From Albula goreensis (Eukaryota; Chordata; Actinopteri; Albuliformes; Albulidae): a stretch of 64,000 nt of DNA. Positions 9,738 through 59,840 of the stretch are shown here, one piece after another. Where the stretch lies: the NCBI GenBank assembly GCA_022829145.1, contig CM040765.1:9220292-9284291 (forward strand). Reading direction: 5' to 3'. Position 1 is the first letter of the stretch. Each line of letters begins with the position of its first letter. The translations under genes and the position numbers were made by a program. A model generated the notes under the pieces. The model was not told where the DNA came from. It saw only the letters and a list, made by a program, of their open reading frames with translations, and did no database searches.

Positions 9738-10866
9738 GATATTGCCCTCATTGCCGTGCTTCTAATCAGAATCATACTCAAAATTCTGTTTTAAAAGATC
9801 CAAACATGAGATTAGCTAACGCAGTCAAATTGACTAAAGCAATGAAAACAAGAGTAGCACCTGTTATTACCCAAGGGGTTCATGCAAGTGGAACAGGTTA
9901 TCCAGTCAGAGATGCAACCACTGATGATTATGAGGACCAGCAGGTAAATCATAACCTAACTCTGTCTGAACTAACAGCCTTACTACAGCAGCAGCAGCTC
10001 CCTACATGGGATGGCATAGGTGACCCAAGTGCGGTAGTTGACAAAGTGCAAGCACTGCAACGGCTACATGCCCTAACAGATAAAGACGGCTGTAAATTAC
10101 TGCAATCAGTACTCCCAACTTCAGGAGCAATACCAGTTGAATTCTTACAGGGTCCGGGGGATCCAGCTGTCTTTCCTGACCATGAAACCAATGGAAGGAA
10201 GAGGACCAAAGTGGTCAAGGGGACATCAGACACAAGCAGCTCAGCAGCATTGTAAAAATAACCCAAGGCCACCTACATACTCAGAACTATTGACAATGAT
10301 GCAAGCACTCACTGACTGTGGCCAGGAAAATCCAGGAGGCTCAGAGACCTCATTTTTGGACACTGGGGATGTTCAGTCAGCCCTGATGTTCAATTCAGCA
10401 GTGTTATTGACCACATTCCTGTTAATGTCCCTGATTGAACCAGTTTACTGTCTGCAGTTGAATGTAGACAGGAAGCACCTGTATTTAACACACTCAATCA
10501 AATAGCACTATTATAAATCTGATATTGTCTTAACTCTGTTGAGTAACATCCCATGCTTCTCGTCTCCAAACTAGTTTGGAGTTAAATGTTACAAACTAAT
10601 GAATTATGAGTGTTCTGCCCCTGTAGTTTGTTCATGTTGCTTCTTGTTACAGTAACAGAGTACGGGCTCTCTGATCTTGAAAGAAGCCCTTTTCAAACTG
10701 TTTTCGTTTGAATTAGTGCCTTGTGTTATGCATATTCCTGTTGTTCTGGCATTAATGACTGTCAGCCACTGCTAGCCAACTCTGAGTAGTTAGTAGCATC
10801 AAGCTAGCTATTTTCTTTAGGCTGTAATGTATTTGTTTTGTAAGAGCATAGTGTTATAGTCTGCAC
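9738..10866 (+). repeat. ORF-bearing repeat, copy 1 (5'-truncated)
   Basis: This 1.13 kb stretch matches 12542-13670 almost base for base at a constant offset of 2804. It carries an open frame (from the ATG at 9806 to 10255) that lacks the upstream part present in copy 2, because it starts abruptly after a broken minisatellite unit. A second frame follows (10137-10505) and includes an Asp-Thr-Gly sequence that could be a decayed aspartic-protease motif. No reverse transcriptase, integrase or clear long terminal repeat was found. A retroelement origin is only a guess. Confidence 0.7.
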
Positions 10867-12033: not shown

Positions 12034-13895
12034 TTTTCTTAGGCTGGAATGTATTTGTTTTCTAACAGCATAGTGTTATAGTCTGCATTTACTTTGTAAG
12101 AGTGTAGGTATTCCAGATGGCCTGTACACTTGTTTTGGATACTGGGGATGTTCAGTCAGCCCTGATGGTCAATTCAGCAGTGCTTATAACCCCATTCCTG
12201 TTAATGTCAAGGAGTTCCATGAAGCCCTTTTAAAATCAGTTCAATGTATGTTTTTGTTTGAATTAACGGCAGGGCCTTGTGTTGTGTATATTCCTGTTGT
12301 TCTGGCATTAATGACTGTAAACATAAGATAAAGCAACATGGAATGGAAAATGAAACATTGAAAAGACAGGTGGAAGCACTGGGCCTAGGTGGATTTAAGG
12401 AGGCAATTGAGTCAGAGCACAGTTCTGGTGATGAGAGTGAGATTAGACAAGCTGTTGTGGCTCACCTCTCAGATGTTTCTGATGAGTTTACTGGTGATGA
12501 AATGGCAAGTTTAAATGGTAGAGAGACAAGTGAGGGACAAAGATATTGCCCTCATTGCCGTGCTTCTAATCAGAATCATACTCAAAATTCTGTTTTAAAA
12601 GATCCAAACATGAGATTAGCTAACGCAGTCAAATTGACTAAAGCAATGAAAACAAGAGTAGCACCTGTTATTACCCAAGGGGTTCATGCAAGTGGAACAG
12701 GTTATCCAGTCAGAGATGCAACCACTGATGATTATGAGGACCAGCAGGTAAATCATAACCTAACTCTGTCTGAACTAACAGCCTTACTACAGCAGCAGCA
12801 GCTCCCTACATGGGATGGCATAGGTGACCCAAGTGCGGTAGTTGACAAAGTGCAAGCACTGCAACGGCTACATGCCCTAACAGATAAAGACGGCTGTAAA
12901 TTACTGCAATCAGTACTCCCAACTTCAGGAGCAATACCAGTTGAATTCTTACAGGGTCCGGGGGATCCAGCTGTCTTTCCTGACCATGAAACCAATGGAA
13001 GGAAGAGGACCAAAGTGGTCAAGGGGACATCAGACACAAGCAGCTCAGCAGCATTGTAAAAATAACCCAAGGCCACCTACATACTCAGAACTATTGACAA
13101 TGATGCAAGCACTCACTGACTGTGGCCAGGAAAATCCAGGAGGCTCAGAGACCTCATTTTTGGACACTGGGGATGTTCAGTCAGCCCTGATGTTCAATTC
13201 AGCAGTGTTATTGACCACATTCCTGTTAATGTCCCTGATTGAACCAGTTTACTGTCTGCAGTTGAATGTAGACAGGAAGCACCTGTATTTAACACACTCA
13301 ATCAAATAGCACTATTATAAATCTGATATTGTCTTAACTCTGTTGAGTAACATCCCATGCTTCTCGTCTCCAAACTAGTTTGGAGTTAAATGTTACAAAC
13401 TAATGAATTATGAGTGTTCTGCCCCTGTAGTTTGTTCATGTTGCTTCTTGTTACAGTAACAGAGTACGGGCTCTCTGATCTTGAAAGAAGCCCTTTTCAA
13501 ACTGTTTTCGTTTGAATTAGTGCCTTGTGTTATGCATATTCCTGTTGTTCTGGCATTAATGACTGTCAGCCACTGCTAGCCAACTCTGAGTAGTTAGTAG
13601 CATCAAGCTAGCTATTTTCTTTAGGCTGTAATGTATTTGTTTTGTAAGAGCATAGTGTTATAGTCTGCATTTACGTTGTAAGAGTGTAGGGGATACTGGG
13701 GATGTTCAGTCAGCCCTGATGTTCAATTCAGCAGTGCTAATAACCCCATTCAATACAGATTCTGTCCTCTGTGTTGATGGGGGTCTTGTGGGAACAGGAA
13801 AGATATTCAAGGTGTCAACAACCCACTATGTGGTCACAGCCATTTTCCCACAATTCAGAGCTGGGGTGTTGGGTTTAAATGTCTGTGTGACAAGG
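12034..13895 (+). mobile_element. ORF-bearing repeat, copy 2 (longer), possible degenerate retroelement
   Basis: The longest frame runs from 12277 to 13059 (260 codons). Its N-terminal part looks coiled-coil-like (about residues 20-50), followed by an acidic stretch, a Cys-x-x-Cys pair near residue 92, and a Gln-rich segment. This order resembles some Gag-type proteins, but I do not recognise the family. Similar blocks of about 70-150 bp occur at 12034-12200 and 13620-13760 (both include GGGGATGTTCAGTCAGCCC), so short direct repeats flank the ORF. A further coding-like fragment reaches 13895. No polymerase was found. Confidence 0.45.
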
Positions 13896-15072: not shown

Positions 15073-21027
<5,955 letters not shown>

Positions 21028-24023: not shown

Positions 24024-25437
24024 TCACAGTTTGGACAGTATGGCTGTGCTGTGGCCTTGATAAAGATGGTGCTGTAGAAAATCTAGAATCTTCTTCCATG
24101 AGTCCTCTTGTGCATCTGAGTGTGGCTTTGGCTGGCCTCCCCAAAGCAGTACCACTAAGGGGGATAAAAAAAACAATGAAATGTATGAGTAATGGGATTT
24201 TGGTGACTCTGCTATTTTTCTTTGAGCAATGCAAAAGCAGTTAAAGAATTGTCTTTTGGGCGATGAGAGGGGCCGATGTAGGCTATGCTATTGCTAATGA
24301 CACAATGCCCCGCAAGACTGTTAGCCACAGTTGCAGATGATATCGTTACGATTCAATCTAAGACACCCCTACTCAAAACACAAGCCACTCAGGAGGTCTC
24401 TGTTAGTCAGTGTGATCTTGCTGAGAGTACCTTTCTCCCGAGTGTGCTGCACAATGAAGTTACTGGCACGGAAGTGCGGCGAGTACGGTGGCTCAATCAG
24501 GTGACCTGTCTCAGGGTACGCGAGCGTGGTGAGCAGGTGACTGTTCCCAGCCTCTTTCATCATCTTCTCAATCTGGAAGATGATGCATGTCATACGATTA
24601 TTATGCAAGTGTGTTACTCACTGTCGCTCAGTGATGTCACAGGAACCAGGTGTGTGGTACTCACGTCTTCAGCAGACTCCGCCACGGCCCAGTTCTGATC
24701 GTCCAGTCCAACGATGAACAGCACCGGACACTTTATTTTCCCAACCTGTTAACACCATTCACCTCCATGTGAGGTTACTTACTGTCCAAATATGGTAATG
24801 TCACATGTTTGCCCTGTCCTGAGTATCCACTCTCCATCATCCACAATACAATCCATGTCACTGATGTCATCAGTGTGACCTTAAGTCGTTTCAGAAAACA
24901 GACTCGTGCTTTTCTTTTGTAAAGACAAAATGCATTTTTCAACTTCCTTGCCACTCTTCATTTCATATTGATTTTTATCCCATCACATTGCCTGATTTTA
25001 GTCACTTTTATTACCATGTAACTTATCGTGTAACTTATTACTCCAATCATTCTGTAAGCTTCAGCCCTGCGAGGTGAGGCAGGATGAACACACACTGGCC
25101 AGCCCAGCTGTGCTTCAGGGCTGGGATCACACATCCCTCCACTACTCATAAACAATGCAAGTAACTCATCAACAGCAACTATAAACTTACATGTATTTTC
25201 CTGCTAATGTCATCTGGAATTGGCAATATAAGGTCCCTCCAGATTAAATGATTGTTCTCATCGACGCGTATCTTGTGGGCTTGCCTGGAAATAAATCAAT
25301 GATCAATTAAGTTTTCGAGGCTTCAATAGTTTCAAGGCTAATACAGCACTACTACAGAAAATATCAGATAATACTTTCAAATTCCACAACGCCTAAATAT
25401 CCCTCCCCCTGCAAAACACAAACCCGCATACGCACTG

Positions 25438-25469
<32 letters not shown>

Positions 25470-28400
25470 TCACTGCTGTGTGCACCACACCTGGGTCAAA
25501 CAACCCTGTACCTCTTTAGAGTCAAATCTGTTAACAGTCCTTCATATCCATGAATTTTCAATGGACCATTATGTTACACTCAAAGAATTTTGCTTGGAAT
25601 ATTGGCAAAAATATATGTTTCTTTTACAAGAGCTGGTAATAGCAGGACCTTGTCTGAATGGTTAGAGAAGTTAAAATAACTCTACTTTGACACAAACGGT
25701 GGAGCTCTTACTTGTCAAACTCTTTAAAAACGGAGTGAAGGGGCATGTTGGTAGACTGGGCGTGGCTTCCACTGATACACACACAACACTTTGGCTGGAG
25801 GAGTACAGACAGATAATTAACCAACAGTGGCTATCATTTACACATCACTTCACTGCACCTCTCAATGACTTAAGAGTGATTTTGATCTTTATGTGAATCT
25901 GTGTTGGAGCTGTGTAAATACATGCATTCTAACATGTATCAAAACATATTTCAATTTGGTAGAGAATGAGATTAGCAAACTAGTAATATAAATTAATATA
26001 TGAATCAATATAAATTGCAACCCCCTCCACCTTTACCCACATAATCCAGTTTAAAGAAATCATACAGTTCATATTTTTAGACACCGATTCTCAAAATAGC
26101 CCCTGTAGTACCAGCCAAAATTTAAATCATGGTCAATTTGTCAAGAAGGCTTCTTGACACAAAGTAGGTCTGTAAACTGTACAAACCACTAAAACCCATA
26201 GAACACTCTCAGATAACATTTCAGTGCAACAGGAGAGATAAACTGAGCTGATAAGATGAATTGTTCAGCACAGACTCACATGTGCGACTTTGGAGTGTGC
26301 TGCCAAGGAAAGGGACACTGCGGTGCCAAATGACAGGCCAAACACTGCTACTCGGTCAGTGGCCACCAGGGGGTGCTCCTGCACAATTCTGAAGGCAGTC
26401 TACGTTAGTGTAAAGAAGAAAAAAAAACAACAGTCTTAAACAGTGTAAACAACACAGCAAACATTTTTTCTCCATTCTCTGTGAAAGTATGTCTCACACT
26501 GAATTCGGCTACCAAAGTATAGTTGCATTAATAAATCAAGGTATTGTTTAGAACATGTTACCCATCCTTTATACAATGTTATGCAAATACATCCACCCAC
26601 AAACGCTAATGTAACTACAGCACACGTGAGAAGTGTTTAACCTCTGCCCTAGTGAGTGTGGGTGAAAGGTAATGGCACGGACTCTGTTACAGGCCTGTGT
26701 ACATTCCACAGATCCGCACATCCGGTGAAGCGTAAAAGATCATGTTTTGATTCAGCAGAAAGAACAATACGGTGACATTTACCTCAAAATAAGTAGCCTC
26801 AATGGCATGGGTTCTGAATTCATCATGAGATAGGTATTCAAGCGCCATGGAGACAAAGCCATGTGATGCCAGGAGGGCGGAACGATACTCCACCAGGCCC
26901 CCACCCCCACCCCACATGTCCAGAATACCAGGAAAGGGTCCAGGACCTATGATGAAACGACACCTTTACCTGTCTAACACACACACAATGGAACTAATCT
27001 TTTATTATGATATTTAAACAGGACATATTTGAGATGTCAAATCTATGGGTAATAATATATTACCTGTTATATCTGAACTATCACACAGAGGTTAATATTG
27101 TAACAGTAATGGTGGATGACATTGCCAAACCAAAACATGGTGGACGACAAATCACCCATCCCAAAAGTTACACTGCTTACAAAATAGTATTAGAAAAGTA
27201 GGTTACACTGCCATATGGGTGCAAAGTACATCATTTCAATGCCAGAAATTCAGCTAGCCACAAAAGGGAGGATCACTCTTTTAAGTACAAAGGCAACAAT
27301 GTTGAACTCTTGACATCTTCACCTATCTAACTCAAAGGTTAAGGGAAAATCACCCACATTTGGACATTACCTGCTCGGCTTATGACTCACCTGTTCTGAT
27401 AAGGTATTAGGCATCACCCTCACAGTAACTAACCTGTCTAATTTTCACAAGGAATTGAGCTTGCCTGACTCACTTGCTAAGGTGAAACTTGCACGTTTTG
27501 AGACATATGTTTTGGAAGGTGAAGTACCTGGAGGTATGAAGAGGGTCCCTCTGATGCCGCTCTCACTGATGTCCACCCTGCGAACGCCAGGCGCCATGTA
27601 CCAACGCTCTGTGATGGCACACGCCAAAGCCGCCGCCTCCCTGAAACCCTGGCTAATGTGTCCTCTGTACACAGAGATTTGCACCACCATCGGAGTGCAG
27701 ACATCCATCTTCCGTAACCTGAAAGAGGCAGAGCGTTTGAGGTGACCTGGAAGCCAGGGAACAGCACATTTTGAATGGGTGTGTGTGTGTGATTGGATGA
27801 CACAAACATTTGTGGAAACATCTATTAATCGCTATTGATTGCCAACATTTTTTAAATTCTTTTCTGGATGCAATACATTAATACAGTGTAGCTCAGCATC
27901 ACACACAGATAATGAAGGACTGAAAAAAAAAATCAAGCCTTAATGTTATGCACAGGTAACGCTGACACACGGCTGCAGGTGCCACTGGGAGAAGGTTCAG
28001 GAAGGGAAAAGCAAGAGAACCTGGAGGTCAAGTCCAAAGTGCAAACACTTCTCTGACTCCCAGCTACAACATATGATGTTGGATGACACAGTAACTTTAA
28101 AAGATTGAGGACAACACAGACCTGAGCCCTGTTCTGTGTTACAGGTGAGGGTGTTTACCTGAGCCCTGTTCTGTGTTACAGGTGAGGGTGTTTACCTGAG
28201 CCCTGTTCTGCTGAGCCCTGTTCCAGGCACTGGTTCTCTTACATGAGCCCTGTTCCACAGTGAGGGTCCCATGGGCTCTGCCCTGTTCCCTGAGGGTGTT
28301 TACCTGAGCCCTCTGTGTTACAGGTGAGGGTGTTTACCAGCCCTGTTCTCTGTTACATGAGCCCTGTTCTGCTTCCAGGCACTGGCAACAGCAGTCCCAT

Positions 28401-29134
28401 GGGCTCTGTGCCCTGATATGAGCCTCCCACACTCACATCCTCTGCAACTGCAAACACAGTTCAAGCTGAGTTAACCATCACTGCTACTGCAGGTGTTCTC
28501 CTGGCTGATTCACTGAGGCATTTCACTGCGGGCTCGCATTACTGTGTGACATAACACAGCAGCTGTTAAGATTAGTTACATTGTCACTCTTATGCCAGGA
28601 CCAGTTACATTGTCACAATCAGCTACCCTCCTTGTTAAACATGCTTCCACTACATCTCGTTCCATACACAGCCCATGACAGAAAAAAAAACTATTTAAGC
28701 ACTGAATTGTGCTTGCTGAATACACATTTTAACACAGTTTTAGGTATCATAAATTGCCATTACTATATAATTATACTACAAACTGTTAATATACTATACA
28801 ATTGTATTACTATATAAGCAAACTCTATGATACAGTTATACCATCTAGTGCCATTACAAGTGAACAGAACACAAGAGGAAAAAAAAAAAGTTTCATGTGT
28901 TATAAAAAAAAATATTTAATTTGGCAGCTCCAAACCTGAAACTGTTCCTTTCGTGTCGCTTACATAGTGCCCAAAAGCCTCCCAGAAATCGTTGTCCTCA
29001 GACTGATGCAGAGAATGCAGAGTAACCTTTAGCCCCGGAGGTAAATTCTTCACCACAACCTGAAACTTTTCATCAACCAGTCCCCTACAGGGCCTGACTG
29101 TGAGCATTGGACAAGGAATGGTGCCAGACATCAT
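24024..29134 (-). CDS. ACOT/BAAT-family acyl-CoA thioesterase, copy A (peroxisomal)
   Basis: Type-I acyl-CoA thioesterase / bile-acid-CoA N-acyltransferase family; hydrolyses or transfers CoA-activated acyl or bile-acyl groups. Ten coding exons (5' to 3'): 29134-28936, 28441-28357, 27718-27528, 26946-26783, 26399-26280, 25794-25712, 25284-25191, 24745-24665, 24572-24431, 24154-24024; 1290 nt, 429 aa, no stop. The N-terminal beta domain fills exons 1-3. The alpha/beta-hydrolase domain follows with nucleophile elbow GLSFG (Ser236), Asp327/328 in LDDQNW, and His363 in GHLIEPP. The serine favours thioesterase over BAAT-type (Cys) chemistry. The last residues, ILSKL, are a canonical PTS1, so I infer a peroxisomal enzyme. 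Exon 2 lacks nine bases that encode Trp-Ser-Met-Lys in copies B and C. The start is ATGATG just after an acceptor; a 5' untranslated exon ends at 30112. Confidence 0.9.
25441..25468. repeat. (CA)n microsatellite in copy A intron 6
   Basis: About 14 CA units within the intron between exons 6 and 7 of ACOT/BAAT copy A. Confidence 0.9.
28121..28372 (-). repeat. Scrambled 37-bp splice-site repeat, copy A
   Basis: Two intact 37-bp units (28126-28162 and 28163-28199) are followed by rearranged pieces of the unit mixed with duplicated bits of exon 2. The same unit forms clean arrays in copies B and C. Here the exon 2 donor has become CTCAT|GTAACA instead of CTCAG|GTAAAC, so a donor remains but is weaker. 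Confidence 0.85.
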
Positions 29135-39051: not shown

Positions 39052-42000
39052 TCAGCGGCTCCCACTGATCTCCAGCTGGGCTCTGAGAAGCATACCTTCT
39101 CCACTCGAGTGCAGGTGCTGCTCCAGGAAAGACAGGATTTTCCGCCATGAGTCCTGCTGTGCGTGTGCGTGCGCGTCGGTCTCACCCCCCCACAGCACGT
39201 GCGCTGCAACACAGCGAGAGATCCAAATCAGCACTGCTCCACCTTAGGAGAACATGCCTGGGGCTGGAGGCCCAAAACACTGTGTGTTCAGTGAGCTATT
39301 TCACAGTTTGCTGATCAATTGAGTAATACTGGATGTTGGATGCTTGTGATTTGGAACATAACCACATACTGTCTCAGACACACCAGCATTTTGTTCAGTG
39401 GCCAACAACAGTGGGTGTTTTTCTTCTGGGAGAAATGTTCACATGTATCTGTCTATGGGCTTTGGAAGGCAGGTTGCCTTATGTAGGCATGGCCTAGTGA
39501 GTCGGCCACTTTCCCTTATTATCAAAACTAAAACCATAAGCAGTCCAGAAGGTGATTCTATTATTATATTATATTATATAAAAGAATGTTCAACATATGC
39601 ATATTAGCTGTTCACAGTTTTGTTTAAGGAGTACAGGCACTACAGTGTGTGGGACTGGGTGGCAGAGCCATGACTCAAGAGGTACAGTTGGTGATACCAT
39701 ATTTATTGTAGAAAAGATTATCAGTTTTTAAAAACTTAATAATTGTAGAAAGATTGGCAGTGGTTTTCCAGCTGCATCCATGCAGCACTGTACTGTACCT
39801 TCTTTTCTATTCTGTCCGATGAAGATGCTGGTGCGACAGAGTGGCGCAAACGGAGGTTCAAAAAGGTGACCCGCCATTGGGTATGAGAAGGTGGTCAACA
39901 GGTGACTGTTCCCAGCATCCTTCATCACCTTCTCAATCTGCAGGTGGTCAAACATCAACAGGAAAGCTCTGGTCTTACACAGCAAAGGTCAAATCGACTC
40001 AAAGTTAACAGATTTGCTTAATTGCTTGTTTTATTGGAAAGATTATGGTTATTATTGAATGACAATGTTATTGCTTGTGTGTTTGTGTGTGAGGGGGTGT
40101 ACATGTTTCTCAGGTGTGTTGAGGGGCTGCATTTAGGATTCATTTTAAATGCAAGATGGACAGATGGACAGAGGGACTCACGTCCACAGCTGACTCAGGG
40201 GCTGGCCAATTCTGATCATCTCCTCCCACAATTAATGCCAGAGGACATTTGATCTGACCCACCTGGAGACCAGAAAGGAGCAGGACAGTTAAGCTCTGTG
40301 ATGCAATACACAAAAGCCAATCAGAACATCAGAAACAGTAACACAGAAATGATGTCATTCAAGAGTGTGCAATACCAATAATATGTCAAAGCACTCAAAG
40401 TCAAAATCTCACTTTAACATGAGATTAAAAATAAGGTTTCCTGCAGTACTGTCACTCCATTGGAACATTAGCTTTCTCACCAGTGAAAAGGTTGCCCCCT
40501 ACTGGCCCAAATCTGCAGTGGAACACAATTGATATAGTGGATAAAGTTAGCCAGGTCCCTCTGTGCAGATTCGACTCAGTTCCACCCTACGATGTCCCAG
40601 AGTTAACATTAGGCCACTGGTTCACTCAAATGCATTGCTTTTCCCACAGATGTGGAAACCACAGAATCAAGGGCCACATCTGGCTACTCCAATAACAGAG
40701 CAAGGGAGGAACTAGAGCCACAGACAGCAAATTTACTCACATCGATCTTCTTTTTGGGGTCAGACGGTATAGGCAAGATGAGATCCCTCCATATCACTTG
40801 CTTCTCCTCATTGTATCGGGTCTTATGGACATTTCTCATGTAATAAAGAATAAGAAACAAGATGAAAGAGATGATGCCGTATTATGAAGCACTTATCTTT
40901 CTATGGGCATTTCCTGTTGAACTTTGCTGAAGAATGCCAATAGATGAATACACAAGATTCTTTTGTCACCCATTACAAGTACAACTGCAGACAAATAGAC
41001 CTGGGTTAGGCCAATTATTGTAAAGAAATCTATTTTCACCAATATTTTTTTAGAATGGGGCAAAGCAGCAGTGAAATTCACAGTGACACTCACTTGGCAA
41101 TCTCTGCCATAACTTCAGCCAGGGAATCCCGAATAGAGATGATGTGAGTTCCACTCACACACACCAAACACTGGGGCTGAAAGACCCAAAGACAATTCAT
41201 GAATTTAAAAAGTATTTTATTTATCCTTAATATATTGTTATTTTTTGGAAAAAAATGAACTGGTAAAGAAATAAAGCATTATATGAGGATGTGGAGAAAT
41301 GCTTCTCATACCTTCAAAAATGAAATTTCAGTATTTGTGTATTTGACCAAAATGTAGTTGCTGAATCAGAAAAACAATTCATGTGTGACATCAGAATACA
41401 ATAACACAGATAAGTGGTTTATGAGAGACTCACATGTGCAACTTTGGAGTAGACTGCCATCGACAGAGACACAGAGACACCCAGTGACAGACCAAACAAC
41501 GCAATTCTGTCAGGAGTCACAAGAGGATGCTGTTGCAGAAGTCTGAAGGCAGTCTACAACATCAAATAAAAGAGAGAAAACAAAAATTAAACATTAAAAA
41601 CTATATATAAATACATCATTTTTGTCTTCTGTGTCAAAAAACAGAGAAGAAATTTACCTCAAAGTAGCTCAATCCAATGTCAGACGGTACAGATTCACCG
41701 AGGGGAAGGTATTTAACTACCATGGAAACAAACCCATGTGATGCGAGGAGGGCGGAGCGATACTCAACCAGGCCTCCACTCCCACCCCACAGGTCCAGAA
41801 TACCAGGGAAGGGTCCAGGACCTCAGAACAAAGAAGTCCCTGCGTTACGCTAAGACATTCACAGCTTTGGCCGTTCTCTTTACCTGCCTAACACCCTGGG
41901 ACCTGTCAGTGCACAGCTTTGACCTTCATCTCAATCTGTACAACAAAGATAAGAGGTGAGAAAAAAACCTTGTAAAAATCTTTGGTAATATATAATCACA

Positions 42001-43624
42001 GAAATGGGAATCCTTCTTTGAATTTAAACCTGGAAAAGTGGGTGGACTGGCTTTCTCACTCCTGTAGGCATCGTAGTGGAGCTGAAGGTTTGAATGGGTC
42101 ATAAAACCAACACGAATTAGAAAGAGCTTGTTAAAATATTTGCCGTTCTGAGCCAGTCTATTTCCCTCATTCCTAATGCACAGCTGAGGATGACTGGTAA
42201 TCAGCACAGCTATTGCTTATTGCCTTCACCGGGCCTGTTATAAAAGCACAGCCTACTAAAACTCAGGCACTGCTAGGGGAAACTTTATTTTAGAATGGTA
42301 CTAATTAGGTTCCCTCTCTGTTTTCCTTGTTTTTGTCTTTTCATTGAAGGGGAATAAACCAGAATTATCTTATTTTCTTTTACCCAGTCACTACCCTGTC
42401 ATGCACTGCTGTGCAAGTGTCTGTAGTGTTTTACTAATCACCTGGTGGTATGAAGAGGGTCCCTTTGACATCGCTCTCTCTGATGTCCACCCTGCGAACG
42501 CCGGGCACCATGTACCAGCGCTCAACGTCGGCGAACGCCAAGGCCGCCATCTCTCTGAACCCCTGGCTGACATGTCCTCCGTACACAGAGATTCGCACCA
42601 CCATCGGAGTGCGGACATCTACCTTCTGTAATCTGGGAGACCCAGAACATTATAACTGCTACTAAACTCATTTTCTTCTCATATGTGCTGTTTGTCATTT
42701 CCCCCTTACAGACAGAATGCACCTCTTCCCCTCAGCACCTGAGGAGCTGTACAGGTGAGGGTGTTTACCTGAGCCCTGTTCTGTGTTACAGGTGAGGGTG
42801 TTTACCTGAGCCCTGTTCTGTGTTACAGGTGAGGGTGTTTACCTGAGCCCTGTTCTGCGTTACAGGTGAGGGTGTTTACCTGAGCCCTGTTCTGTGTTAC
42901 AGGTGAGGGTGTTTACCTGAGCCCTGTTCTGTGTTACAGGTGAGGGTGTTTACCTGAGCCCTGTTCTGCTTCCAGGCACTGGCTTCATGCTCCACAGCAG
43001 TCCCATGGGCTCTGTGCCCTGATATGAGCCTCCCACACTCACATCCTCTGCAACTGCAAACACAGTTCAAGCTGAGTTAACCATCACTGCTACTGCAAGC
43101 ATTTACATTTGGCTTGTATTATATTCTTCATTTGGGCACCTGGTTATCTAGCAGATGGCACACCTGCCACTCCAGTGTAATTTATTTATCATACAGAATA
43201 ATGCTCTCATGATGTTTATGGGAATTACATTGTTTATGGTTTTATATGAGGATATAAAAATAAAATAGACTCTTCCTGTTTAGGTGAATCATTTACAAAT
43301 TTCCCTGAAACTTCAATGCATTAAAAACCCAGCATCACTGCATTAATGACAGTTTTACATAACAGGAGTTGTTGGAAAACATCTGTACAAGATACATGAT
43401 GCAAGTTTTTAAAACTTCTCCAAACCTGAAACTGTTCCTTTCGTGTCGCTTACGTAGTGCCCAAAAGCCTCCCAGAAATCGTTGTCCTCAGACTGATGCA
43501 GAGAATGCAGAGTAACCTTTAGCCCCGGAGGTAAATTCTTCACCACAACCTGAAACTTTTCATCAACCAGTCCCCTACAGGGCCTGACTGTGAGCATTGG
43601 ACAGGGAATGGTGCCAGACATCAT
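39052..43624 (-). CDS. ACOT/BAAT-family acyl-CoA thioesterase, copy B
   Basis: Same family and exon plan as copy A. Exons: 43624-43426, 43047-42954, 42632-42442, 41821-41658, 41553-41434, 41176-41094, 40834-40741, 40262-40182, 39937-39799, 39203-39052; 1317 nt, 438 aa, no internal stop. The N-terminal domain includes GTEPMGLLWSMKPVPG, shared with known ACOT/BAAT proteins. The hydrolase domain has nucleophile GLSLG (Ser239), Asp330/331 in GGDDQNW and His366 in GHLFEPP. Unlike copy A the tail ends Ser-Gly-Ser-Arg with no peroxisomal signal; relative to copy C a small indel shifts the frame near the end and brings an early stop. It may therefore be cytosolic. The start is the ATGATG pair after an acceptor; a 5' untranslated exon ends at 43956. 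AATAAA on the minus strand (38746-38751) is a likely poly(A) signal. Confidence 0.9.
42751..42957 (-). repeat. 37-bp tandem repeat over the exon 2/intron 2 junction, copy B
   Basis: Five complete units begin at 42773, 42810, 42847, 42884 and 42921, plus a 22-bp partial unit. On the minus strand each holds the last 12 bases of exon 2 (AACAGGGCTCAG), the donor GTAAAC and a TGTAACACAG acceptor-like end. The exon's own donor is the rightmost one (exon end 42954). Confidence 0.95.
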
Positions 43625-46958: not shown

Positions 46959-49900
46959 TCAAAGCCTCGTCTTCACCGATGTGACGGTGGCTTTCCTCGG
47001 CGGCTCCGCTGAAAGCTGAGCTACGAGAAGTGTACTTTCTCCGCTCGAGTGCAGGTGCTGCTCCAGGAAAGACAGGATTTTCCACCATGAGTGCTGCTGT
47101 GCGTGTGCGTGCGCTTCGGTCTCACCCCCCCACAGCACGTGCGCTGCAACACAGCGAGAGATCCACATCAGCACTGCTCCACCTTAGGAGAACATGCCTG
47201 GGGCTGGAGGCCCAAAACACTGTGTGTTCAGTGAGCTGTTTTACAGTTTGCTGATCAATTGGGTAATAATGGATGTTGGATGCTTGTGATTTTGAACATA
47301 AACAGCTACACTACCCCTTGTGTTTAAGGAGGAGTACAGACACTACAGTGTGTGGGACAGTGTGGCAGAGCCATGACTCAAGAGGTACAGTTGGTGATAT
47401 CAAATTGAATACAGAAAAGAGGAGCAATCCGTTTTAAAAAAACTGTTGTATATGACTGTTTTCTGCGTAGAAAAGCAGCATTACATTTAAACAGTTCTGA
47501 TTTGAGGCATGACATCAAATGACATATCTTTGGAGGAGAATGATTAAGTACATTTGATGAAGGTTATTGCATAAACATTGGCAGTGGTTCCTCAACTACA
47601 TGCATGATGCGCTGTACTGTACCTTCTTCTTTATCCTTTCCAATAAAGATGCTGGTGCGACAGAGTGGCGCAAACGGAGGTTCAAAAAGGTGACCCGCCA
47701 TCGGGTATGAGAGGGTGGTCAGCAGGTGACTGTTCCCAGCATCCTTCATCACTTTCTCAATCTGCAGGTGGTCAAACATCAACAGGAAAGCTCTGGTCTT
47801 ACACAGCAGAGGTCAAATCGACTCAAAGTCAACAGATTTGCTTAATTGCTTGTTTTATTGAAGAGATGATGCTTATTGTTGAATTACAATATTATTGCTT
47901 GTGTGTTTGTGTGTGTGAGGGGTGTACATGTTTCTCAGGTGTGTTGAGGGGCTGCATTTAGGATTCATTTTAAATGCAAGATGGACAGATGGACAGAGGG
48001 ACTCACGTCCACAGCTGACTCAGGGGCTGGCCAGTTCTGATCATCTCCTCCCACAATTAATGCCAGAGGACATTTGATCTGACCCACCTGGAGACCAGAC
48101 AGGAGCAAGGCAGTTATGCTCTGTGATGCAAAACACAGAAGCCAATCAGAATGTCAGAAGCAGAGGAATAGAAATGATGTCATTCCAGAGTGTGCAATAC
48201 CAATAAAAAAGTCAAAATCTCAGTTTAACATGAGATTAAAAATATTGTTTCCTGCAGTACTGTCACTCCATTGAAGCAATAGCTTTCTCACCAGTGAAAA
48301 GACTGCCCCCTACTGGCCCAAAGATGACATTTCTAAACCTTGGCTATGTTATTGCCATCTATCAATGGGAGTCTGCAGTGGAACACAATTGATATAGTGG
48401 GTATAGCTAGCCAGGGCCCCCTGTTCTGCAGATGTGTAACCACAGCTTTGAGGCAACTTCTGGCTACTCCAATAACAGAGAAAGGGAGAAACTAGAGCCA
48501 CAGACAGCAAATGAACTCACATCGATCTTCTTTTTGGGGTCAGACGGTATAGGCAAGATGAGATCCCTCCATATCACTTGCTTCTCCTCGTTGTATCGGG
48601 TCTTATGGACATTTCTCATGTAATAAAGAATAAGAAACAAGATGAAAGAGATGATGCCGTATTATGAAGCACTTATCTTTCTATGGGCATTTCCCATTGA
48701 ATTGAATGCCAATAGATGAATTGACACCAGATTCTTATGTCACTCGTTACAAGTACAACTGCAGACAAATAGACCTGGGCCATTTTCACCAATACTCATT
48801 ACCAAATACTTATTTGATTGGATTGTATGTTCTAGATAGCAAATTGTTTTGCTAAAATTGTTTTTTAATTTTTTTGTAATTGTGCAAGCATTTAAAGATT
48901 TAAAGATTTTAAGATTTTAAATGTGCATTTGACCCTGAAAGTAACACCCATTTTTCTGGGTCGAAAATTTTATGCTGTGAATGATACCAAGGAAATTAGA
49001 CAAATGAATACAGACAGCACATGCATCAATGTAGATATAGTCTATATAGATACATATAGATGTTTTTCAGAATGGAGCAAAGCAGCAGTGAAATTCACAG
49101 TGACACTCACTTGGCAATCTGAGTCATAACTTCAGCCAGGGAATCCCGAACAGGGAGGACGTGAGTTCCACTCACACACACCAAACACCTGGGCTGAAAG
49201 ACCAAAAGAAAACTCATGAATTTAAAAAATATTTTATTAATCCCTAATGTACTGTTATTTTATTGGAAAAAGTATTTAGCTGGTAAAGAAATAATGCACA
49301 ATATGTGGGTGTGTCTCTCGCACATTAAAAAAAAAAACATTTTCAATATTTGTGTACTTCACCAAAATAATTGGTATATCAGAAAAACAATCCATGTGTG
49401 ACCTCAGAATACAATAACACAGGTAAGAAGTTTATGACTGACTCACATGTGCAACTTTGGAGTAGGCTGCTATTGACAGGGACACAGAGACACCGAGTGA
49501 CAGACCAAACAATGCAATTCTGTCAGGAGCCACCAGGGGATGCTGCTGTAAAAGTCTGAAGGCAGTCTACAACAGAGCAGTATGTAAATGTAATAGGGAG
49601 CAGTACAAGCAATCAAATTTCCCATGAATGCTATTTTCTCTACATTTTTTGTTTGTTTTTGTTTTCTGTGTCACAAAAAAACTGAGAAGAAATTTACCTC
49701 AAAGTAACTTAACCCAATGTCAGAGGGTACAGATTCACCAAGGGGAAGGTACTCCATTACCATGGAAACAAACCCATGTGATGCGAGGAGGGCGGAGCGA
49801 TACTCAACCAGGCCTCCACTCCCACCCCACAGGTCCAGAATACCAGGGAAGGGTCCAGGACCTCAGAACAAAGAAGTCCCTGGTTAGGCAAAGACATGCA

Positions 49901-51203
49901 CTTTGACATTAAAGTTTTTTTTTAGAATATTACTTTTAGGTTCCCTTGCTGTTTCCCTTATTTGTGTTTTTTCATTGAAGGGGTATAAACCAGAATTATC
50001 TTATTTTCTTTTACCCAGTCACTACCCTGTCATGTACTGCTGTGCAAGTGTCTGTAGTGTTTTTCTAATCACCTGGCGGTATGAAGAGGGTCCCTTTGAC
50101 ATCGCTCTCTCTGATGTCCACCCTGCGAACACCGGGCACCATGTACCAGCGCTCAACGTCGGCGAACGCCAAGGCCGCCATCTTTCTGAACCCCTGGCTG
50201 ACATGTCCTCCGTACACAGAGATTCGCACCACCATCGGAGTGTGGACATCTACCTTCTGCAACCTGAGAGACCCAGAACATTATAACTGCTACTAAAATC
50301 ATTTTCTTCTCATATGTGCTGTTTGTCATTTCCCCCTTAGTGACAAAACACACCTGTTCCCCTCAGCTGCTAAAGAGCTGTAGAAGCAGAAGATTTGTGC
50401 TTTACAGATGAAGGTGTTTACCTGAGCCCTGTTCTGTGTTACAGGTGAGGGTGTTTACCTGAGCCCTGTTCTGTGTTACAGGTGAGGGTGTTTACCTGAG
50501 CCCTGTTCTGTGTTACAGGTGAGGGTGTTTACCTGAGCCCTGTTCTGCTTCCAGGCACTGGCTTCATGCTCCACAGCAGTCCCATGGGCTCTGTGCCCTG
50601 ATATGAGCCTCCCACACTCACATCCTCTGCAACTGCAAACACAGTTCAAGCTGAGTTAACCATCACTGCTACTGCAAGCATTTACATTTGGCTTGTATTA
50701 TATTCTTCATTTGGGCACCTGGTTATCTAGCAGATGGCACACCTGCCACTCTAGTGTAATTTATTTATCATACAGAATAATGCTCCCATGATGTTTTTGG
50801 GAATTACATTGTTTATGGTTTTATATGAAGATATAAAAATAAAATAGACTCTTCCTGTTTAGGTGAATCATTTACGAATTTCCCTGAAACTTCAATGCAT
50901 TAAAAACCCAGCATCACTGCATTAATGACAGTTTTACATAACAGGAGTCGTTGGAAAACATCTGTACAGGATACATGATGCAAGTTTTTAAAACTTCTCC
51001 AAACCTGAAACTGTTCCTTTCGTGTCGCTTACGTAGTGCCCAAAAGCCTCCCAGAAATCGTTGTCCTCAGACTGATGCAGAGAATGCAGAGTAACCTTTA
51101 GCCCCGGAGGTAAATTCTTCACCACAACCTGAAACTTTTCATCAACCAGTCCCCTACAGGGCCTGACTGTGAGCATTGGACAGGGAATGGTGCCAGACAT
51201 CAT
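46959..51203 (-). CDS. ACOT/BAAT-family acyl-CoA thioesterase, copy C
   Basis: Closest to copy B. Exons: 51203-51005, 50626-50533, 50263-50073, 49861-49698, 49566-49447, 49193-49111, 48614-48521, 48087-48007, 47761-47623, 47143-46959; 1350 nt, 449 aa, no internal stop. The catalytic set matches copy B (Ser239 in GLSLG, Asp330/331, His366 in GHLFEPP). The C-terminal tail is longer than in B and ends Lys-Thr-Arg-Leu; TRL is at best a weak variant of the [SAC][KRH][LM] peroxisomal signal. Because every exon phase closes and no stop occurs, I treat it as a working gene. The start is the ATGATG pair as in A and B; a 5' untranslated exon ends at 51492. Confidence 0.9.
50401..50536 (-). repeat. 37-bp tandem repeat over the exon 2/intron 2 junction, copy C
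   Basis: Three complete units begin at 50426, 50463 and 50500, plus a diverged partial unit at 50401-50425. The unit is the same as in copy B. The exon's own donor ends the exon at 50533. Confidence 0.95.
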
Positions 51204-52799: not shown

Positions 52800-53420
52800 T
52801 AAACACTTTTGATGTCAAAAGAGGGATTCTTTTCCCTCATAAAGCCACATTATTTGAGGCAGGTACACATGCTACATTTAATAAATATCCCTTATCATAT
52901 CCCATGTGCCAGGGATTTTAACCAATCACAACAGCTGATTAACTTCTCAGATTTTATTTTCTGTAATGTGCAGTGGAACGTTATTCCTGTGCAAAGAGTT
53001 AAGAGTTTCAATGGATTTATTTATAGATTGTCCAGTAAAATTGCATTGGTCCATAGTTTTTATTAATCATAATTGATTAAGAGATTAGCTGAAACTTTAT
53101 TCACTGACTACCTAAAATGTATATAACAAAAAAACATGAACGCCATACAACAGTGTGAGGAAGCTTGAGGCAACACTTTCATGCAAATGTAAGTTAAAAT
53201 GTAGATGGAGGGTTATTAAAATGGGGTAACAATAGATTGTGATATTTTATACTGGAGCCAGAACTTAAGTAATTTTACCATGCAAACATATACAGCAACT
53301 TCATTTCACTCCAATAAGTGGGAAACATTACATCACAGACTTGAACCCTCTTTATTAACCCAAAGAAGACAAAATCAGGCAGGCCCCTTCATTTGCTCTG
53401 ACGGAAGTTAGATCTGTTTC
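52800..53420. repeat. Third copy of the array's downstream spacer block
   Basis: About 52830-53100 resembles 38090-38300 and 46260-46480 (shared CAGGGATTTTAACC and ATCACAACAGCTGATTAAC). It marks the start of a third, partial array unit. No gene in it. Confidence 0.7.
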
Positions 53421-54499
53421 TGTAGAGATTATAAGCAATATTTTAATAGTAGTGACTCAGTGTCATGTTATCATGCTGCTGTTGAACAACTGTTATTGTT
53501 CATCTCTGACATCTCTGACATGGTGTCATGGTAAAGATCTGGTCATTGAGCAGGTCATTCAATATCCGTTGTCTGATTCATAGTGTAAATTAAATGTATG
53601 ACAACACTTTAGTTTCCTGTGTAATAAAACAAGAATAATACTTTAATATTTGTTCAAAATTATGAAAATTACCAACCTGGTCTCATTAAATACTACATAT
53701 GTGTGACAGGATGAGGCTGAGGCTGTGACAACCGAGTGTGGCTGTATCTGTGTGACCCTCCCGAGTATGCATTAAGATAAAGGACATGAAGATAAAGGAT
53801 AGTCCTGCAGATGAGTCATATGTGGTTGAAGGCAAATTTTCTTTTTGCATGTGAGACAACAGCAGTGCAATACTTTGTTTACCCTTGTTTGTGTAACATG
53901 ACTCTATCAGGCCACTCACGAACCTTCAGGACACTGTAAGGAAATCTCAAATAACTTTATTATAATTCATGAGGACAGTATTACAATTACACCAAACCCA
54001 GTAGTCTACTGTTTCTCATCACTTTCTACCACCTCAGCACCACCACCAGCCATTGCATGCCATAAGCACAGCATGGCATGAACACACAGCCAACACAAGA
54101 TAAGGATATGAAATAAATGTACATGCATTTATACATATTCAGCATGCAATTACTTGGTAATTTCATTATAAATCACAATAAAGTCCATCTACATATAAAG
54201 CCTAACCCTCGTCTTCTAAATGATTTTATATTACACCATTTCATGTTACATATTTCATTTACATTTACAGAGTAAATGTCTGAATTGGATCTGATGGGAT
54301 GAAGTAGGAAAAATCAAGAGAAAAACATATCAGTATCTTTTATAGTTCATTTGTCTTCGATTGATTGCATACACAGAAGTCATTACAAGCTTTTTGAAGA
54401 AGCTAATATTTCAAAAGTAATCATTGCATCCCCCACCAATCTGATTAAGGATAAAATTGTACATACATATGATGTACAATAATCATGTAATACATTCAG
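53421..54499. repeat. 1.08-kb direct repeat, copy 1 (3' flank of X1)
   Basis: Matches 56296-57375 at an offset of 2875-2876 with few differences. It starts 35 bases past the X1 stop codon and so represents the X 3' untranslated and downstream region. AATAAA on the minus strand lies at about 53956-53961. Confidence 0.95.
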
Positions 54500-56270: not shown

Positions 56271-56295
56271 AAAAATGAACAGGAAGAACAGTAAT

Positions 56296-57375
56296 TGTAG
56301 AGATTATAAGCAGTATTTTAATAGTAGTGACTCAGTGTCATGTTATCATGCTGCTGTTGAACAACTGTTATTGTTCATCTCTGACATCTCTGACATGGTG
56401 TCATGGTAAAGATCTGGTCATTGAGCAGGTCATTCAATATCCGTTGTCTGATTCATAGTGTAAATTAAATGTATGACAACACTTTAGTTTCCTGTGTAAT
56501 AAAACAAGAATAATACTTTAATATTTGTTCAAAATTATGAAAATTACCAACCTGGTCTCATGAAATACTACATATGTGTGACAGGATGAAGCTGAGGCTG
56601 TGACAACCGGGTGTGGCTGTATCTGTGTGACCCTCCCGAGTATGCGTTAAGATAAAGGACATAAAGAGAAAGGATAGTCCTGCAGATGAGTCATATGTGG
56701 TTGAAGGCAAATTTTCTTTTTGCATGTGAGACAACAGCAGTGCAATACTTTGTTTACCCTTGTTTGTGTAACATGACTCTATCAGGCCACTCACGAACCT
56801 TCAGGACACTGTAAGGAAATCTCAAATAACTTTATTATAATTCATGAGGACAGTATTACAGTTACACCAAACCCAGTAATCTACTGTTTTCTCATCACTT
56901 TCTACCACCTCAGCACCACCACCAGCCATTGCATGCCATAAGCACAGCATGGCATAAACACACAGCCAACACAAGATGAGGATATGAAATAAATGTACAT
57001 GCATTTATACATATTCAGCATGCAATTACTTGGTAATTTCATTATAAATCACAATAAAGTCCATCTACATATAAAGCCTAACCCTCGTCTTCTAAATGAT
57101 TTTATATTACACCATTTCATGTTACATATTTCATTTACATTTACAGAGTAAATGTCTGAATTGGATCTGATGGGATGAAGTAGGAAAAATCAAGAGAAAA
57201 ACATATCAGTATCTTTAATAGTTCATTTGTCTTCGATTGATTGCATACACAGAAGTCATTACAAGCTTTTTGAAGAAGCTAATATTTCAAAAGTAATCAT
57301 TGCATCCCCCACCAATCTGATTAAGGATAAAATTGTACATACATATGATGTACAATAATCATGTAATACATTCAG
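56296..57375. repeat. 1.08-kb direct repeat, copy 2 (3' flank of X2)
   Basis: Second copy of 53421-54499. Its right end at 57375 lies about 150 bases from the X2 first exon, with no coding sequence between. X2 is therefore a gene whose coding body has been deleted, leaving promoter plus 3' region. Confidence 0.93.
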
Positions 57376-57602: not shown

Positions 57603-58091
57603 TTCTGGGCGTGGTGTTTATTGTGTAAACCACACACCTATGTGCAAATCATAAAACGTCACTGAGAATGAACTATTCAAGTAGACAACTGAAAAATGAT
57701 AACTAATATTATAGCTGCAAAAAGTGAAATTAATATTTGTTTGAATATCTTTTTACAGAGGTTAATGCAGCGAATGCAGTCTCTACTGAAACCACTAAAT
57801 GTGACCGAGGACAAAGATAACCATCAAATATTTGATCATTAATAAAATAGTGGAATAATTACATGATAATTACCAATAATGTTGCAAATATCGAATCCCT
57901 GAACATGGAAGTATAGATAAACATTGAATAATAATGGCAACTTACTGTCACCTGAGAGAGAGAACTAGTAGTACAGTATGCAAATGTGAATGGAGTTTGA
58001 TCCCCTTGGCCTAAAAAATGAATATTAAATATTGTGGTGTTTACTGTCTGAAGTTATAATTACGTGATAAGACTTGTCTGAAGCTACGTCT

Positions 58092-58868
58092 TCAAAGCTG
58101 TGATAGTGGCTTTCTTTGATTGCCCAAAAGGTCTCCGCTTGAGTACAGGTGCTGATCCAGGAAAGACAGGATTTTCCGCCATGAGTGCTGCTGTGCCTGT
58201 GCACGCACTTTGGTCTCACCACACACCCAACGCCACCCACCCCCAATCCCCCGAGAGCATGCGCACTGCAACACAGCGAGAGATCCACAACAGCACTGCT
58301 CCACATTAGGAGAACATGCCTGGGCCCAAAGACACCATGTGTTCAGGGAGTGATTTTACACTTTGATCCATTGAGTAATAGTGGATGTTTGTTGGATGTG
58401 TGTGATAGGGAACATAAAGACCTACTGTCTCAGACACAACATCATTGTGATTAGTGATCATTAGAAATTTAATGTGCTTCTGGGAGGACAGTTCATTTGA
58501 AACTGTCTGCAAGAGCATTGGAAGGCAGGTTGCCTTTTATAGGCATGGCTTCTTCTCAATCTGCAGGAGGCCAACGTCAACAGGAAAGCTCTATCCATAT
58601 GCAGCCAAGTGTAAATTGACAAATTAGGTCAACAGATTTAATAAGAGATGATGCTTATTGCTGAATTACAATGTTATTGCTTGTGTGTTTGTGTGTGAGG
58701 GGGTGTACATGTTTCTCAGGTGTGTTGAGGGACTGCATTTAGGATTCATTTTAAATGCAAGATGGACAGATGGACAGAGGAACTCACGTGCTCAGCTGAC
58801 TCAGGGGCTGGCCAGTTCTGATCATCTCCTCCCTCAATTAATGCCAGAGGACATTTGATCTGACCCAC
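58092..58868 (-). pseudogene. Truncated ACOT/BAAT copy D
   Basis: Remains of exon 8 (58868-58788, still open, with GGDDQNW), a stub of exon 9 near 58550-58575 that keeps only its acceptor and first codons, and exon 10 (58265-58092). The His-bearing part of exon 9 is deleted. Exon 10 carries an insertion near its start that breaks the ancestral phase. No exons 1-7 were found to the right. The final frame of exon 10 ends Ser-Gln-Leu, a peroxisomal signal known from BAAT. It is a non-functional fragment. Confidence 0.85.
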
Positions 58869-58899
58869 CTGGAAACCAAACAGGAGCAAGACAGTTATG

Positions 58900-59840
58900 C
58901 TCTGTGATGCAAAACACACAAGCCAATCAGAATGTCAGAAACAGAGAAATAGAAATAGAAATGAAGACAGGGTGATGTCATTCCAGAGTGAAAATACTAA
59001 TAACGTGTTAACCAGCACAGAGAACGAATCTCAAAGTCAAGATGCACTTCTTCTATTAACAGTAAGTAGTACATCAGGTACACACAGAATTCAAAAGACC
59101 TATTTTAGATTTCAAATGACACTAAAGTACTGTTTCGTTCAGTACTCTCTCCATTATTTCTCTACCAAAGGTAAGACTGCCCCCTTCTGGCTCAACACAG
59201 TTTTGCCATTGCACCTGTGCTATAACTAACATAAATGAAATGAAATATCCCAGGAATAGAGTTACCATGCCCTCTAGTGCCCTCCTGTGCTAATATACCT
59301 TACAATGTCAGGAGCAGAATTTCCCAGCTGATGAGCAGAGCGTGATCTGTGAGCAGCAGCACTGTTTAAATGCTGTCTGACTTAAGCTTTTGACAGGCTG
59401 AAAACAGACATTTAATCACAACCAAAGTATTTCACAACAATAGATTGGGCTTAACATAAAGATATGGTTCCCTATGTTGTTTTATGTGTGAGAGATTAAT
59501 CAGAACTCATTTAGTTTACGTGTTTATTAAATAGCAAAATCTCACCGTCCTACAATACAGAAAATTTAAATGAATAAGTAGTATGTGAAGACGGGCATCA
59601 TGTAAAGGAAGGGGACGAGGAACTGCTAGCCATCAGGTACCATAATTTGGCATTAATAAATTAAACAATACATCCCTTCTTGAGTAGGGGTATAACGGGA
59701 GGGGGGGGGTCAGTCTCTCCTTTTTTCCCTTTCAGAAATTAAACGTGTACAGATGAGAACACTGTCATATCTCACGGGAGGGGAGGCGTGTTTCCACTTT
59801 TGAAAGTGTCTGTGTTTTTGTGACTTGAAAAATTGAATAA
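58900..59840. other. Intergenic region between copy D and samm50
   Basis: No gene recognised. A G-run lies at about 59700-59709. The stretch separates the minus-strand array from samm50 on the plus strand. Confidence 0.6.

Follow-up and report, generated by a model that had tools for sequence, protein, structure and literature searches.

Minisatellite-like tandem duplications of an exon-intron boundary are known from amphioxus, in which the mirage minisatellites of Adh3, troponin C, the globins BflGb6 and BflGb9, and PGBD5 are described as length unstable, with AG/GT kept in many units, and are said to leave regular splicing undisturbed and to be possibly general among cephalochordates (PMC3087553, PMC3902484). 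In human ABCA7, a 25-bp variable number tandem repeat (VNTR) in intron 18 includes the exon 18 donor, and retention of one unit is reported to cause a premature stop with truncation or nonsense-mediated decay; this array starts at the donor GT, holds about 12 to 427 units, is disease-linked, and has been RNA-tested, its length affecting nearby splicing in people (PMC5954066). Two downstream units of a minisatellite in human IFI6 (6-16, G1P3) serve as donors and yield three mRNAs, according to a citing passage (PMC4526556), and intron gain by tandem AGGT duplication, the Rogers model, has been described for ATP2A1, fission yeast, and potato RdRp (PMC4974935). Exon-border repeats that multiply a donor have therefore been described before, in the amphioxus mirages, ABCA7, and IFI6. 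Here we analyze a 64-kb window of the Albula goreensis genome (contig CM040765.1, C25:9220292-9284291), in which a 37-bp tandem repeat multiplies the splice donor of exon 2 in genes of the ACOT/BAAT family, and we add that such arrays recur at several unrelated genes in one genome. The vertebrate cases turned up by our literature search are two single human loci. That limited search, judged by title and the start of the abstract, found no fish or genome-wide account of such arrays; a fish myostatin-2 paper reportedly mentions minisatellites (PMC3045353).

The ACOT array is likely a mirage-type minisatellite straddling the donor, a tolerated by-product that is presumably unstable in length, and not a regulated switch. 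As in the amphioxus mirages, its unit spans an exon-intron boundary and keeps the splice signals, whereas it differs from them in belonging to a vertebrate gene family, in its 37-bp unit, in affecting the donor side only, and in being present in three tandem paralogues. The ACOT and ABCA7 arrays both hold the donor of the exon, and in ACOT, as reported for ABCA7, splicing at a further unit would bring a premature stop, but the ACOT unit also includes exon bases and the ABCA7 array begins at GT. The extra donors of IFI6 give alternative isoforms, whereas the downstream donors of ACOT would lead to a stop. Tandem copies of an AG|GT segment are common to ACOT and the Rogers model; in ACOT no new intron is seen, the array being placed within, and at the edge of, an intron that already exists.

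Array Structure

The minus strand of the window carries three genes of the ACOT/BAAT family (A, B, and C), whose modeled exons 1-9 are open for 388, 390, and 390 residues, respectively. The gene body of copy B (39799..43624) carries an open frame with the Pfam domains Bile_Hydr_Trans (PF04775, 4.3e-41) and BAAT_C (PF08840, 2e-34) and matches the human ACOT2 structure 3hlk (E 5.6e-59). Copy C (47623..51203) is likewise open, and copy A (24432..29134), which with copy B was covered by the Pfam scan, has both domains (PF04775, 3.6e-35; PF08840, 2.3e-40) and is open only with a weak donor, CAT|GTAACA. Exon 2 of copy B (42954..43053, minus strand, 100 nt) starts in phase 1, ends in phase 2, and encodes part of the ACOT/BAAT N-terminal domain; exon 3 is modeled at 42442..42632, so that intron 2 measures 321 nt when counted from the exon's own donor but 136 nt from the final donor of the array. 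Exon 2 of copy C (50533..50632) shows 0/100 differences from that of copy B, and exon 2 of copy A (28357..28447) is 9 nt shorter than both.

Tandem Repeats Finder (TRF) placed a 37-bp array in copy B at 42750-42968 (5.9 copies, 98% matches, score 431). It called the same unit in copy C at 50402-50547 (3.9 copies) and in copy A at 28120-28210 (2.5 copies). Read in register, copy B has six units, the exon 2 end plus five (42750..42971), and copy C has four (50403..50550), where the own donor after 50533 is followed by three more and the last, fourth unit diverges from the others. The repeated 37-bp segment consists of the last 18 bases of the exon and the first 19 of the intron. In copy B, the last exon bases before the donors stand at 42954 (the exon's own), 42917, 42880, 42843, 42806, and 42769; the last 12 exon bases, AACAGGGCTCAG, directly precede every one of them, and the junctions between units read TGTAACACAG in four of five cases and TGTAACGCAG in the fifth. 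The donor is CAG|GTAAAC in 6/6 positions of copy B and 4/4 of copy C, so the splice signals are kept across units. With general donor and acceptor matrices and a general U1 sequence rather than database ones, this donor scores 7.5 of 12.75 bits and pairs with the U1 5′-end at -8.3 kcal/mol.

That this border is the true exon 2/intron 2 boundary of an ACOT/BAAT gene follows from the protein: when the exons of copy B are joined at the own donor, the Bile_Hydr_Trans match runs unbroken over profile positions 1-126 of 126. A sequence-only reading of this DNA had placed five full 37-bp units on the border, each with the last 12 exon bases and a full donor, and these elements of it are borne out by the TRF calls, the in-register reading, and the domain match. 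It had located the array in copy B, where it is indeed present, yet copy B is not alone: the same border carries the repeat in all three paralogues, and that of copy A is damaged. Unit number differs among A, B, and C in the one haplotype examined.

On the opposite (+) strand, full units read GTTCTGTGTTACAG|GTGAGG (42750-42971, 50403-50550, 28120-28345), a strong acceptor (8.8 bits) joined directly to an almost perfect donor (12.2 of 12.75 bits) by the same matrices, which resembles a recursive-splicing site. Of 5000 single-base shuffles of the unit, 2 reached the joint score. The window contains 509 AGGT sites, and 11 of the best-scoring 16 fall within the arrays. We know of no + strand gene at the arrays.

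Splicing Consequences

The sequence-only reading had further pointed out that any downstream donor gives an immediate stop and had proposed the array as a possible switch to non-productive mRNA. The first statement is correct, as the bases directly after the border are AGG TAA and the exon's open frame ends in ...SRTGLR and then a stop. However, an AG|G TRA stop arises wherever an exon ends in phase 2 and its donor is GTRA. Because the stop is automatic for this combination of phase and donor, it is not a designed feature, and we rejected it as evidence of design; an in-frame stop after a donor should not be taken for a designed switch.

The proposal itself was not supported. A controlled choice among tandem donors, in which stop-containing mRNA tunes the output of ACOT and unit number serves as a rheostat, would make use of the six identical donors in copy B and four in copy C, would profit from the stop that follows every downstream donor, and has a parallel in the influence of VNTR length on nearby splicing at ABCA7 (PMC5954066). 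We nevertheless consider it very unlikely: the stop is automatic, the acceptor within the unit is weak, similar arrays occur at unrelated genes and are on record for amphioxus, ABCA7, and IFI6, and folding of the array is no better than that of shuffled sequences (z 0.26 and -0.31), which led us to reject a switch based on RNA structure. Conservation of the decoy donors likewise gave no clear signal. Ratios of change in the donor to change in the rest of the unit were 0.19 and 0.69 for the two exon arrays and 0 to 9.6 for ten others, the controls being non-exon arrays from the same search pattern, two of the ten with unclear exon status; one further array gave no ratio, and two (L065 and L071) were left out. 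Because the exon arrays do not stand apart, constraint on the decoys was rejected. Arrays at an SH3RF-like gene, a contactin gene, and a zinc-finger gene, described below, have donor rates below those of the rest of the unit, a comparison biased by the fact that the arrays were found through donor words; that at RXYLT1 was dropped from it, its 39/40-bp unit being misaligned. By analogy with ABCA7, some leakage to downstream donors is likely, and it would give non-productive mRNA.

A different use of the array would be to generate an in-frame microexon, by splicing into the TGTAACACAG of a unit and out at its donor which would add Thr-Gly-Leu-Arg to a loop within the N-terminal domain. The reading frame agrees with this earlier suggestion, the 12-base insert being phase-neutral and encoding these four residues. 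The insertion site adjoins a gap in the ACOT2 alignment, and the added residues lower the PF04775 score from 143.1 to 140.4; because this cost is only 2.7 bits, a rare insert might be tolerable. The acceptor scores 2.45-2.98 bits, compared with 1.4-12.5 for 17 modeled acceptors (exons 2, 3, 4, 5, 8, and 9 of the three genes, with exon 5 of copy A left out), 16 of which exceed 2.45 bits, and on this ground a meaningful microexon acceptor was rejected. Use of the nearest unit would leave an intron of 25 nt, whereas the third and later units would give a first intron of at least 62 nt. Overall, a microexon generator is extremely unlikely.

The Damaged Border of Copy A

Copy A has 2.5 perfect units (28120..28210), with intact donors after 28196 and 28159, and between these units and the exon a scrambled mosaic of exon 2 and unit pieces (28211..28357) that holds one more intact donor, after 28304, for three intact array donors in total. 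From 28357 to 28216, 99 of 142 bases lie in 10-mers of copy B exon 2 plus unit; 200 single-base shuffles gave 0.26 such bases on average and never more than 11. The own donor at 28357, CAT|GTAACA, scores 2.98 bits versus 7.5 for the intact donors and is followed by an in-frame TAA, and all stronger donors lie past that stop. Copy A either splices at its weak donor or is non-productive, with an assembly error also possible.

These features suggest that the array could be a gene-breaking lesion that has made copy A at least, and perhaps all three copies, non-productive. We regard this as possible but unlikely, given that in B and C the own donor is intact and exons 1-9 are open and that the other exons of copy A are open, with both Pfam domains kept. 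Alternatively, the unit numbers and the scramble in copy A might come from mis-assembled repeats. Array lengths are hard to assemble, the mosaic is odd, and a shift of frame at a homopolymer of the RXYLT1 exon discussed below suggests some base errors; the three copies nonetheless have different flanks, and the same architecture is found at unrelated loci, making an assembly artifact most unlikely.

Origin and Probable Gene Conversion

A paralogue at C25:12.13 Mb, 2.9 Mb away, has the same exon end; its only donor there is GTATGT, and its intron 2 measures 105 nt and has no array. In a search of this genome a 185-bp array probe matched A, B, and C only. Because of this paralogue, the one used as the array-free comparison, and because the probe is confined to the three copies, the array looks derived and local. 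The array-free paralogue has its intron at the same position, and no new intron of the kind gained by tandem AGGT duplication is seen at this locus. The 37-bp unit was absent from the viral contigs that we searched.

In copy C, the word AAGCA starts the unit at the exon end and appears again, still in register, where the fourth unit stops, 148 bp (4 × 37) downstream, while the inner units start with ACACAG. Duplication of the 37-bp segment at two AAGCA words would give this picture, a hint that the repeat may have been seeded by microhomology.

Copies A and B differ at 2/199 positions in exon 1 and 2/91 plus a 9-nt gap in exon 2, as opposed to 31/191 in exon 3 and 36/164 in exon 4 (exons 1 and 2 together 4/290 versus 67/355 in exons 3 and 4, Fisher p 1.7e-14), and their introns could not be aligned. 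Between B and C, there are 0/299 differences in exons 1 and 2 and 38/694 in exons 3, 4, 5, 8, and 9. Homogenization by gene conversion over exons 1 and 2 fits these patterns best. Copy A's exon 1 (28936-29134) and exon 2 (28357-28447) are ~99% and 98% identical to those of B and C, the 9-nt gap in exon 2 not counted, and its exons 3-4 are 16-22% divergent from copy B.

Donor-Bearing Arrays Elsewhere in the Genome

A scan of the 932-Mb assembly with the pattern CAGGTGAGGN{2,9}TTACCTG returned 108 matches versus 6 for the reversed control. Among the matches listed (~100 of 108) were at least five independent tandem clusters, ACOT being one, each at an apparent exon end; since the search itself favors donor-like words, this five of five should not be taken as a fair rate. 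At RXYLT1 (C23:1750092), 23 units of about 40 bp start at the donor, and the RXYLT1_N domain runs across the border. In a PHD/bromodomain gene, presumably TIF1-like, seven units of 45 bp (C23:1480482-1480794) split the PHD finger, of which profile positions 1-33 of 47 precede the array and 1-47 are recovered once the next exon is joined; a bromodomain lies further on. In these two genes, as in ACOT, Pfam domains continue across the exon's own donor. In the remaining two clusters, the border comes from the reading frame only: 7.2 units of 40 bp (C5:14528205-14528492) in a gene that we take to be SH3RF1-like and that encodes an SH3 domain in an exon close by, and units of ~65 bp (C18:28067336-28068256) after an unnamed open frame without a Pfam match.

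A broader pattern, CAGGTAAGN{17,47}CAGGTAAG, gave 1159 matches versus 344 for the reversed control, and the single word CAGGTAAG gave 34503 versus 24337, an excess of ~10,000, or about 29%, that presumably represents real donors. Among 15 arrays with at least three donors, which make up every such cluster in the listed part of C1-C3 (~100 of the 1159 matches listed), 3 lie where a coding exon ends, a share that does not exceed a rough base rate of up to 29%; there is no sign in this sample that arrays favor true donors, and a preference of donor-bearing arrays for exon ends was rejected. The three are at a zinc-finger exon (identified by Pfam), a contactin exon (PDB match to contactin-5, 1.7e-26), and an exon without a Pfam match that we assume to be TTC38-like. 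Seven single-pair clusters were inspected (L049, L050, L060-L064) and eight left out; L036, L044, and L064 were left without an exon-end assignment. On sequence evidence, such arrays are present at RXYLT1, the PHD/bromodomain gene, contactin, and the zinc-finger gene and, less certainly, at three more genes. With many natural arrays of this kind in one species, the effect of donor copy number on splicing would be open to measurement.

Taken together with the anatomy of copies B and C, these cases are best explained by a minisatellite that is tolerated at the exon border. In this scenario, the 37-bp border segment would have been tandemly duplicated in an ACOT-like gene, possibly seeded by the AAGCA microhomology, then expanded by slippage or unequal exchange and shared or homogenized among the three tandem paralogues, partly by gene conversion. 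Because exon recognition fixes the border, most transcripts would be expected to splice at the exon's own donor, and a minority would probably leak to a downstream donor, gain the stop, and be degraded. Several points weigh against this reading. The damaged own donor of copy A shows that the array region is able to break a gene, the AAGCA microhomology amounts to five bases only, and competing identical donors could favor the intron-proximal one. Moreover, tandem CAGGTAAG pairs per match are 2.4-fold commoner than pairs of the reversed word, with single-word counts allowed for; matches within one array are not independent, so that the Fisher value of this excess is too small. A neutral view must explain the excess by composition or by clustered matches. 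A bolder extension, that donor-straddling minisatellites form a recurrent, genome-wide teleost class of length-variable splicing rheostats, in which more units mean more non-productive mRNA, and supply raw material for microexons and new introns, with the conversion-spread ACOT arrays as one case, seems doubtful to us.

The RXYLT1 units (L005 1501-1725, C23:1750092-1750316) and those of ACOT (42752-42964) share the core CAGGTGAGGGTGT(CT)TTACCTG, which contains a donor on each strand; the two genes use opposite strands, and either common descent or convergence could account for the likeness. In the RXYLT1 exon ending at C23:1750094 (L006/L007), the frame is off by one base at a run of C, which would reflect either an error of assembly or a broken allele. 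Two more 31-bp arrays, with CAGGTAAAC, lie close to the donor array on C18, at C18:28064100-28064596 and 28066019-28066234 (L034 1301-1797 and 3220-3435).

Other Features of the Window

The nucleophile site of the three genes reads Gly-Leu-Ser, its serine aligning with that of ACOT2, and this residue makes them resemble thioesterases more than BAAT of the cysteine type; a serine at this position is also reported in some mammalian BAATs (PMC6934887). Fragments resembling the late exons of a fourth ACOT-like copy lie at 58028-58934. On the + strand, exons from the list of open reading frames at 18717-20957 belong to what we take to be a dihydrolipoamide dehydrogenase-like gene. Direct repeats with 300-nt stretches of 98-100% identity pair 53410-54311 with 56285-57187 (~2.9 kb apart) and 9738-10037 with 12542-12841 (~2.8 kb apart), and both pairs look like recent duplications or the ends of mobile elements.
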